Shown here: piece by piece, positions 10,684 through 36,140 of the stretch
Position numbering within the stretch: the first letter of the stretch is position 1
Layout of the letters: every line of letters starts with the position of its first letter
Source: Candidatus Omnitrophota bacterium
GTDB lineage: Bacteria; Omnitrophota; Gorgyraeia; VGKN01
Direction: 5' to 3'
Assembly (NCBI GenBank): GCA_020052955.1
Contig: JAGVOB010000106.1
Location: forward strand, 1-39,718
Length of the DNA stretch: 39,718 bases
Notes under the pieces: generated by a model
The model's input: the letters and a program-made list of their open reading frames with translations, nothing else
Told to the model about the DNA's origin: nothing
The model's database searches: none
Program-made: the position numbers and the translations under genes

Positions 10684-10846
10684 TTTATACATTCGCGGCC
10701 AGTAGAATCCCGAGTTCGCTAAAAGCGGACGAGGGGCAAAATCCCGAGCTAAACGAGGGGAACAATGGCCGGTTCCTTCGCAAAAGCTCAGGATGAGCCA
10801 TACGGAAACCTCGGGCTAAAGCCTGCGGAGTTATGGAGGGCTTTAT
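10684..10846. repeat. palindromic repeat family B, expanded copy
   Basis: Shares TTTATACATTCGCGGCCAG ... GAACAATGGCCG ... ATGAGCCAYACGGAAACCTCGGGCT ... GGAGTTATGG with 34080-34170. Confidence 0.75.
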
Positions 10847-20097: not shown

Positions 20098-20466
20098 ATG
20101 CTAGAAAAGGACAAAAAAACAGAACTCGGGGTTATAAAAATACATAACAATGTAATTGCGCAGATAGCAACAATTGCATCAAAAGAGGTTGAGGGGGTAG
20201 TAGACATAGAAAGGGGTTTTGTATCCAATTTTTTGGAGTCTATATTTGGAAAATCTATTTTTAATAGAGGTGTAAATGTAGAAACTTTTGAGAATGACGT
20301 AAAGATAAATATATCCGTGGTTGTGGAGTATGGCTCTAGTATTCCTCTTGTAGCAACCAGGGTTCAAGAGAGTATAAAATCTGCCATAGAAAAGATGTCG
20401 GGCCTGAGTTTAATTGAGGTCAATGTTAATGTAAAAGAGGTTAAGTCAATTAAAAAAGTCAAATGA
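20098..20466 (+). CDS. Asp23/Gls24 family protein
   Basis: LGVIKIHNNVIAQIATIASKEVEGVVDIERG. Confidence 0.9.
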   Translation: MLEKDKKTELGVIKIHNNVIAQIATIASKEVEGVVDIERGFVSNFLESIFGKSIFNRGVNVETFENDVKINISVVVEYGSSIPLVATRVQESIKSAIEKMSGLSLIEVNVNVKEVKSIKKVK

Positions 20467-20471
20467 AACCC

Positions 20472-20685
20472 ATCCGCCACAGAACTTTGGCGGATTCATT
20501 GAAAAAGTATATCCCTCGCCTAAGTACTTGTAAATTTTTGAGCTTCGCTCTAAAATTTACTGCGTAGGCTTCGCCCCGAGGAATTCAAAGAATTCCCGGG
20601 ACTAAGTCCTTGAAATCACCTGCCGAAGGCAAGTGATTTCTAAGGGGGATTAATTCCGACAAATCCTTGACACAAAGTGTCAAGG
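20472..20685. repeat. string of five separate hairpins between Asp23 and AmaP genes
   Basis: ATCCGCCA..TGGCGGAT; GTAAATTTTtGAGCttcGCTCtAAAATTTAC; GGAATTCaaaGAATTCC; GAAATCACcTGCCgaaGGCAaGTGATTTC; CCTTGACACaaaGTGTCAAGG. Confidence 0.75.
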
Positions 20686-20709
20686 GTGTCGTCATTAAGG
20701 AGGAAGTCC

Positions 20710-21303
20710 ATGTCAGTTTTTAGCGGCATTGTTTTAACGTTTTACACATTTGTCTTTATGTTTTTAGGGTCTTTGCTTATAGCCTATGCATTGCATCTAA
20801 AACAGATAATAGACCTTACCGCCATATTTGACTATGTGCGCAGTATTCCAAACCTTTGGTTTACATCGGGAGGGGTAGGCTTACTTATGATATTTATAAG
20901 CTTGTCTGTCTCAAAACTTGCCCTTACGAAGTTTCAGCGGGAAAGAACCATAGCGTTTTTAAATCCGGACGGACAGGTTACTATTTCTCTCTCTGCTATA
21001 GAGGATTTTATAAAGCGCATTTCAGCTAATTTAAACGAAATTAAAGAATTGCGCCCTCATGTTAAAGCCACTAGAAAATTTATAGACATTTCTTGCCGCA
21101 TAACTTTGTGGTCAGATACAAATATACCCGATGCTACTGAAAAAATACAAACCCTAATAAGAACAAAGGTTCAAGAAATGTTAGGGGTTGAGGAGCAGGT
21201 AATGGTGAAGATTCATGTCGTAAAGATAGTTCACAGAGAGGTGCATAAAGAAAAAAATCAGGAGTCGGGCACACCTTTCAGGAGTTATGATTTCAGGGCG
21301 TAA
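20710..21303 (+). CDS. amaP: AmaP-like membrane anchor of Asp23
   Basis: Two N-terminal TMs, FLNPDGQVTISLSAIEDFIKRI..., adjacent to asp23; ATG 20710 has SD AAGGAGG. Confidence 0.8.
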   Translation: MSVFSGIVLTFYTFVFMFLGSLLIAYALHLKQIIDLTAIFDYVRSIPNLWFTSGGVGLLMIFISLSVSKLALTKFQRERTIAFLNPDGQVTISLSAIEDFIKRISANLNEIKELRPHVKATRKFIDISCRITLWSDTNIPDATEKIQTLIRTKVQEMLGVEEQVMVKIHVVKIVHREVHKEKNQESGTPFRSYDFRA

Positions 21304-29939: not shown

Positions 29940-29959
29940 GTTTTTTACCGGCATTATTA

Positions 29960-30040
29960 TGAAACTTGAGAGTGTTGAAAAAGCCTTTCTTTTCAACACT
30001 CTCAAGACTGCGTCAAATAAAGGTTTTGCAACGATTTCAA
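29960..30040. repeat. palindromic repeat family C, copy 1
   Basis: GAGAGTGTTGAAAA-agcctttc-TTTTCAACACTCTC plus TGCGTCAAATAAAGGTTTTG tail. Confidence 0.85.
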
Positions 30041-34079: not shown

Positions 34080-34170
34080 TTTATACATTCGCGGCCAGAA
34101 CAATGGCCGCTCAGTATGAGCCACACGGAAACCTCGGGCTTTTAGCCCGAGGAGTTATGGGAGGCTTTAT
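34080..34170. repeat. palindromic repeat family B, compact copy
   Basis: GCGGCCAgaacaaTGGCCGC, GCTCAgtaTGAGC, CCTCGGGCttttaGCCCGAGG; matches 10684-10846. Confidence 0.8.
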
Positions 34171-35893: not shown

Positions 35894-36046
35894 ATAAAAA
35901 GAAAAGACATAGTATTAATTTGGTTAGTCTTACTTAATTTTTAATAGTTATCTTGATATCCGAAGGAATTATTGTTATAATTACACCGCATAATTTTTTA
36001 ATCCGGCATAATATCAAAACCGCAAAATTGGCAAGATAAATAATGC

Positions 36047-36140
36047 TGAAATTTGAGAGTGTTGAAAAAGCTTTTCTTTTCAACACTCTCACGGCAGATA
36101 TCGGAAGATTGCGTCAAATAAAGGTTTTGTAACAGCCTCA
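36047..36140. repeat. palindromic repeat family C, copy 2
   Basis: GAGAGTGTTGAAAA-agcttttc-TTTTCAACACTCTC plus TTGCGTCAAATAAAGGTTTTG tail; about 15 nt longer spacer than copy 1. Confidence 0.85.

Follow-up and report, generated by a model that had tools for sequence, protein, structure and literature searches.

The filler between the asp23 and amaP genes at positions 20457–20703 of the window (the whole stretch of 39,718 nucleotides analysed here, contig JAGVOB010000106.1 of Candidatus Omnitrophota bacterium assembly GCA_020052955.1) is probably a non-coding composite element, U-A-T, of a hairpin-bounded mobile family. On the same reading A and T have been separated by the insertion of B, a module of a second family. 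The family of which T forms one end is spread through the phylum, and in two related genomes its long members contain a gene for a GIY-YIG nuclease. Bacterial intergenic DNA is filled by short palindromic repeats, the known movers of which are RAYT or insertion-sequence transposases; for many of these repeats we know of no mover. The only coding members seen here carry a GIY-YIG nuclease, which points to a different engine for this phylum-wide repeat family.

Layout of the asp23–amaP gap

The gap and its flanking genes are arranged as follows, where R1, R2 and R3 are the covariance models for B, A and T, respectively.

20101–20466, plus strand: upstream gene of the Asp23 family, from the list of open reading frames (AmaP-related profile NF033218, 29.4 bits, below the cut-off)
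20457–20510, minus strand: U, a degraded inverted T-like hairpin, identified by inspection, with its inner hairpin at 20472–20495
20511–20573, plus strand: module A, ATCCCTCGCCTAA, a stem with loop ttc, and TGCGTAGGCTTCG; hairpin at 20530–20560; R2 match of 61.4 bits
20574–20646, no strand assigned: module B, a quasi-palindromic double hairpin with joint GGGACTAAGTCC, placed between A and T; hairpins at 20580–20596 and 20612–20640; R1 matches of 79.0 and 63.5 bits, on both strands
20646–20698, plus strand: module T, GGGATTAATTC, the hairpin CCTTGACAC aaa GTGTCAAGG at 20665–20685, and GTCGTCATTAA; R3 match with E 9.3e-10
20699–20703, plus strand: GGAGG, the ribosome-binding site of AmaP, directly after T (from the sequence)
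20710–21303, plus strand: downstream gene, AmaP (NF033218 above the cut-off, E 4.1e-23)

All five hairpins that the initial annotation had placed at 20472–20703 are present. The first (20472–20495) has an 8-bp stem and an 8-nt loop, and the remaining four have the 3-nt loops that had been described as their shared layout: GTAAATTTTtGAGC ttc GCTCtAAAATTTAC with one T.T mismatch (20530–20560), GGAATTC aaa GAATTCC (20580–20596), GAAATCACcTGCC gaa GGCAaGTGATTTC with one C.A mismatch (20612–20640), and the hairpin of T given above. The stop codon of asp23 (TGA, 20464–20466) lies inside TCAAATGA at the start of U, and the 3' end of the gene, which reads GTC AAA TGA, falls within this degraded module. 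The window's copy of U is below detection by R3; copies of U in other genomes align with reversed T, loop included.

Hairpin density in intergenic DNA

In a scan of 609 kb of the window's own genome, the intergenic regions held 65 perfect stems 7 bp or longer that enclose a 3-nt loop; shuffling these regions with dinucleotide counts preserved gave 6.8. For stems 9 bp or longer the counts were 21 and 1.0. Genes were called crudely as the longest open reading frames, which makes the intergenic borders approximate. Perfect 3-nt-loop stems are thus about ten times denser in intergenic DNA than in shuffled controls, as the initial annotation had anticipated. Hairpins with wider loops, of 4 to 8 nt, exceed the shuffles as well, by a factor of about 4 to 8 for 7-bp stems, with longer stems recounted under the wider loops. 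The 3-nt loop geometry is common, not exclusive, among the intergenic hairpins of this genome.

Several other repeats were seen in the same DNA. Two copies of a long hairpin, 90% alike and with a 17-bp stem TTGAGAGTGTTGAAAA..TTTTCAACACTCTCAA, lie at 29953–30006 and 36040–36091 of the window, and similar hairpins occur between genes elsewhere in the genome. A repeat of the GCTCAGTATGAGCCACACGGAAACCTCGGGCT type, found at 10786–10817 and 34109–34140, represents another dispersed intergenic family. A further kind of palindrome in this genome consists of intergenic inverted repeats of short repeated words (TTGAGTTCATTGAG / CTCAATGAACTCAA; GGTTATTGGTTATTG / CAATAACCAATAACC), as at L010:3094-3404, L065:5017-5197 and L016:5837-5990.

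Modules A, B and T as dispersed families

BLAST comparison of the segment with its own genome and with 39 genomes of the class (here termed relatives) resolved it into pieces with fixed borders. The three covariance models were built from 14–15 copies each; the training sets included the window copies, and the E-values are rough, the calibrations having been short. R1 (module B) gave 74 matches in the window's own genome, 39 in G003, 16 in G030 and 12 in G008, and matched 7 of the 39 relatives; since B is quasi-palindromic and is matched on both strands, the number of sites is roughly half of those 74 matches. R2 (module A) gave 25 matches in the window's genome, 61 in G010 and 39 in G024, and matched 16 of the 39 relatives. 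The widest distribution was that of T: R3 matches were found in 27 of the 39 relatives and, across the phylum, in 91 of 144 genomes. Copy number reaches 127 in G030, the highest, and 119 in G033. Viral contigs contained no exact match to the A pattern.

The unrelated stem sequences had originally been taken to mean that the hairpins were made in place rather than spread. That argument fails in the face of conserved joints and of modules dispersed in many copies, within the window's genome as well as across other families of the class. This largely corresponds to the outcome, each stem a multi-copy dispersed repeat, that the initial annotation had named as counting against it.

When the 73-nt B is removed from the window, A and T are joined into a layout seen elsewhere, and because its removal restores a continuous A-T unit, B is taken to be a nested insertion. 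Likewise, the A copy at L014:9290-9410, once relieved of the 64-nt B in its loop, agrees with the simple A copy in L018 at 56 of 57 positions. B occurs within the loops of longer hairpins in G003 also, several copies lying at CTC^TTCGA.

Copies of A adjoin tRNA genes at L070, L072, L218 and L235, in sense or antisense, and some of the tRNA-adjacent copies have a different neighbouring hairpin in place of T. In the window's genome AAGGAGATGATACGATAACAG is repeated upstream of copies of A (for example on the reverse strand at L011:16255-16290, and at L016:10020), where it carries a tiny open reading frame, often ATG ATA CGA TAA, after a Shine-Dalgarno-like sequence.

Gene borders and the orthologous site

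The T consensus has the 3' end YTCATTAA. In 28 of 33 copies in the window's genome, and in 41 of 50 in G010 and G030, this CATTAA end is turned towards the start of a gene or, where T is inverted, towards a stop codon; at the opposite end no gene border is present in 70 of the 83 copies. An open reading frame lies downstream of 42 of 47 copies of A, 28 with a Shine-Dalgarno sequence and 14 without; on the antisense side only 2 have one with a Shine-Dalgarno sequence. The genes downstream of element copies (about 80) are mixed and are rarely shared between genomes. In G024 (L240-L259), strand and GC skew agree for 40 of 40 copies of A, compared with 76–80% of open reading frames. A replication-strand bias of A in this genome is possible, but copies of A follow gene orientation, and the bias may be no larger than that alone would give.

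AmaP was found in 34 of the 39 relatives. For 27 relatives the position of the upstream gene could be assigned, and in 18 of them amaP is preceded by a gap of 42 nt or less, often with overlap of the genes; the upstream gene in about seven relatives is apparently, from the length of the open reading frame, accC and not asp23, and the gaps are accordingly not all strictly comparable. The asp23–amaP gap measures 243 nt in the window's genome, 197 nt in G030 and 258 nt in G033. In the latter two genomes the gap is occupied by a U...T element whose core differs from that in the window. The initial annotation had envisaged stepwise gain of hairpins in this spacer. Since most relatives have a short gap or none, and the element present in two of them is related to that of the window but differs in its composition, whole elements were gained there, and not single hairpins one at a time. 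In G033 the 10-bp sequence AAGGGGGGTA stands on both sides of the element at this orthologous site, a possible target duplication; no constant target duplication was found at ten other T pairs that were looked at.

Inverted T pairs and the GIY-YIG nuclease

Neighbouring copies of T within 400 nt of each other have a nearly invariant arrangement. All 41 such pairs in G033 are inverted with their CATTAA ends outward, as are 40 of 41 in G030, giving 81 of 82 for the two relatives together. In G033, 37 pairs span 137–245 bp and four span 379–430 bp. Genes for GIY-YIG nucleases, located by an independent search with PF01541, lie inside all four of the long pairs, where chance would lead one to expect 0.003. 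As the division by size was noticed only after the G033 data had been seen, G030 was used as a second test: its three pairs of at least 382 bp each hold a GIY-YIG gene, and none of the other 37 (up to 349 bp) does so. Two of these three cases were first found by reading the DNA, so that only the third is fully independent; for it, as for the G033 pairs, the position of the GIY-YIG gene was obtained from coordinates. Four of the G030 pairs, including one of 419 bp, rest on weaker hits. With both genomes pooled, a GIY-YIG gene is present in 7 of 7 T pairs of at least 379 bp and in 0 of 74 shorter pairs (125–349 bp).

One intact open reading frame of this kind, L164:11310-11549, encodes 79 amino acids and matches PF01541 at 38.6 bits over residues 4–60; the copy at L169 has an early stop. 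The small GIY-YIG genes of G030 and G033 lie mostly outside T pairs, which implies that only a subset of them is involved. At the places checked in the window's own genome there was no T-flanked GIY-YIG gene. The difference in size between coding and non-coding members is clear, and the asp23–amaP gap offers a natural test site.

It was also considered that these modules might be REP or REPIN elements moved by a Y1 transposase of the RAYT type, with B in particular resembling an inverted REP doublet. The joint of B is palindromic and each of its hairpins has a single bulged base, REPINs also show compensatory changes in their stems (PMC3116915), and Y1 genes (PF01797) occur in 32 of the 39 relatives, with three in the window's genome. 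In G022 the Y1 locus (L100) is flanked on both sides by GGGACTNAGTCCC, which is the core of the joint of B; G022, however, has no match to R1, so these repeats are not B. Nor was any T, A or B found in the flanks of the Y1 genes that were read in the window's genome, G010, G030 and G003, and the T pairs of G033 and G030, which do enclose GIY-YIG genes, never enclose a Y1 gene. The Y1 transposase was rejected as the mover on the grounds of these flanks, in which the B-like core in G022 is the one exception, and we regard this explanation as unlikely.

Covariation of the arms

Both arms of the stems change together. In 56 copies of T drawn from two genomes, 97.6% of the cells are paired; double changes account for 200 cells, G.T for 10 and A.C for 11. 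Double changes affect 13 of 19 pairs in the alignment of the T family, covariation is seen in 7 of 18 pairs in module A, and one-sided intermediates, in which a single arm has changed, are almost absent among diverged stems. When co-directional intergenic hairpins are read in the sense of the genes, there are 24 G.T against 24 A.C; tRNAs of the same genomes have 39 G-U in 790 pairs, a figure comparable for the share of G-U only. Since the arms change together without an excess of G-U in the sense strand, stem pairing looks like a property maintained at the level of DNA.

This bears on whether the element is a cis-acting RNA leader in the 5' untranslated region that regulates translation or mRNA processing, its copies being a conserved regulatory RNA. 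The A-T unit does point into the downstream gene, as the open reading frames after 42 of 47 copies of A indicate, and covariation is strong in both modules. RNA pairing would not explain the equal G.T and A.C counts, however, nor the inverted copies of T at stop codons, and some copies lie beside tRNA genes; the downstream genes are mixed, with little sharing between genomes; and a search of the window and ten element loci against Rfam matched only tRNA, tmRNA and rRNA. A riboswitch-type leader was an early reading of A-T, which was given up because T occurs inverted at stop codons and G.T equals A.C. We consider a regulatory RNA improbable as an account of the family, though the element may have a later role in mRNA.

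Template switching can both create and repair stems (PMC8794818), and the initial annotation had proposed that the hairpins arose where they stand, by a process such as strand-switch synthesis, and not through the spread of an element. The near-perfect arms, whose sequence differs between copies, and the roughly tenfold hairpin excess speak for such synthesis. The conserved joints and borders across families, the fixed order and orientation of modules, the clean nesting and the coding long members require, on the other hand, the dispersal of elements. Strand switching in place is therefore largely refuted as the origin, and creation of the hairpins without dispersal is very improbable. The part of the idea that survives concerns maintenance: strand switching may explain how stems stay perfect, given that the arms change together with no excess of G-U. 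Arm-to-arm correction by template switching (compare PMC8794818) and selection on the DNA hairpin both fit the data, which do not separate them. A large set of stems within single genomes, lacking wobble intermediates, should be useful for testing whether template switching maintains palindromes.

Proposed mode of propagation

The family is best read as MITE- or REPIN-like, with coding members that have a GIY-YIG nuclease in place of a transposase; its mobilisation we infer. An element of the T family would consist of two inverted T hairpins, CATTAA ends outward, placed between a stop codon and the next ribosome-binding site. To go only by the position of the nuclease in the long members, the enzyme would cut target DNA and repair would then copy the element in, with no transposase needed. 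The short copies would be non-autonomous derivatives, the hairpin ends may be recognised as structured DNA, and the arms would be kept perfect by one or other of the two processes named above. The family also shows how an operon can be entered by an element that brings a stop codon with it and leaves the ribosome-binding site intact. It is also possible that the GIY-YIG genes are cargo, and that the elements could be moved by another enzyme.

A broader proposal, which we advance tentatively and with some doubt, is that these represent a mobile element of a new type, with hairpins at its ends and a length of a few hundred base pairs, which is propagated by a GIY-YIG nuclease and not by a transposase, and which enters at ribosome-binding sites, such that one end restores the upstream stop codon and the other adjoins the Shine-Dalgarno sequence. 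The non-coding derivatives spread across the phylum, one nested inside another, would descend from such elements.

Comparison with known systems

No account of bacterial palindromic elements associated with a GIY-YIG gene turned up in a literature search, subscription journals being largely outside its reach. The closest parallels are with four groups of elements. The REPIN/REP-RAYT systems (PMC3116915, PMC3733652) share with the present family short intergenic palindromes in many copies, their arrangement as inverted doublets around a variable middle, stems with compensatory changes, and an encoded enzyme with similar ends. They differ in that the enzyme between the ends is here a GIY-YIG nuclease and not a Y1 transposase, and in that there is here no shared GTAG/CGTC tag at the foot of the hairpin, CGTC being present only in some copies of T such as that of the window. 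REPINs, moreover, lie mainly downstream of genes, whereas copies of T abut gene starts and stops, and the units described here are larger, with other modules nested inside them.

Bacterial MITEs, including the ERIC-like enterobacterial elements RU-1 to RU-3 (PMC2759123, PMC10969869), are likewise non-coding and intergenic, with a length of 100–300 bp and inverted ends; the short non-coding T pairs (125–349 bp) have terminal inverted repeats in the same way. Some MITEs supply coding triplets to neighbouring genes, and they are deletion derivatives of a coding element, which are further points of likeness. The ends of MITEs, however, are shared with an insertion sequence that encodes a transposase, while the only coding members seen here carry the GIY-YIG nuclease. 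As to a target duplication, there is one suggestive 10-bp repeat in G033 and no constant one at the ten T pairs looked at.

Free-standing GIY-YIG homing endonucleases resemble the long members in having a small intergenic GIY-YIG gene, and in that one site can be found in a long form and an empty form in related genomes. They differ in that the present elements have conserved inverted hairpin bounds and many non-coding derivatives at non-allelic sites. Finally, the hairpin elements of mitochondria, for example the RHEs of sponges (PMC2800124), are also repetitive, hairpin-forming fillers of intergenic spacers; the family described here differs from them in being bacterial, in having its borders at gene starts and stops, and in possessing a long form that encodes a nuclease.
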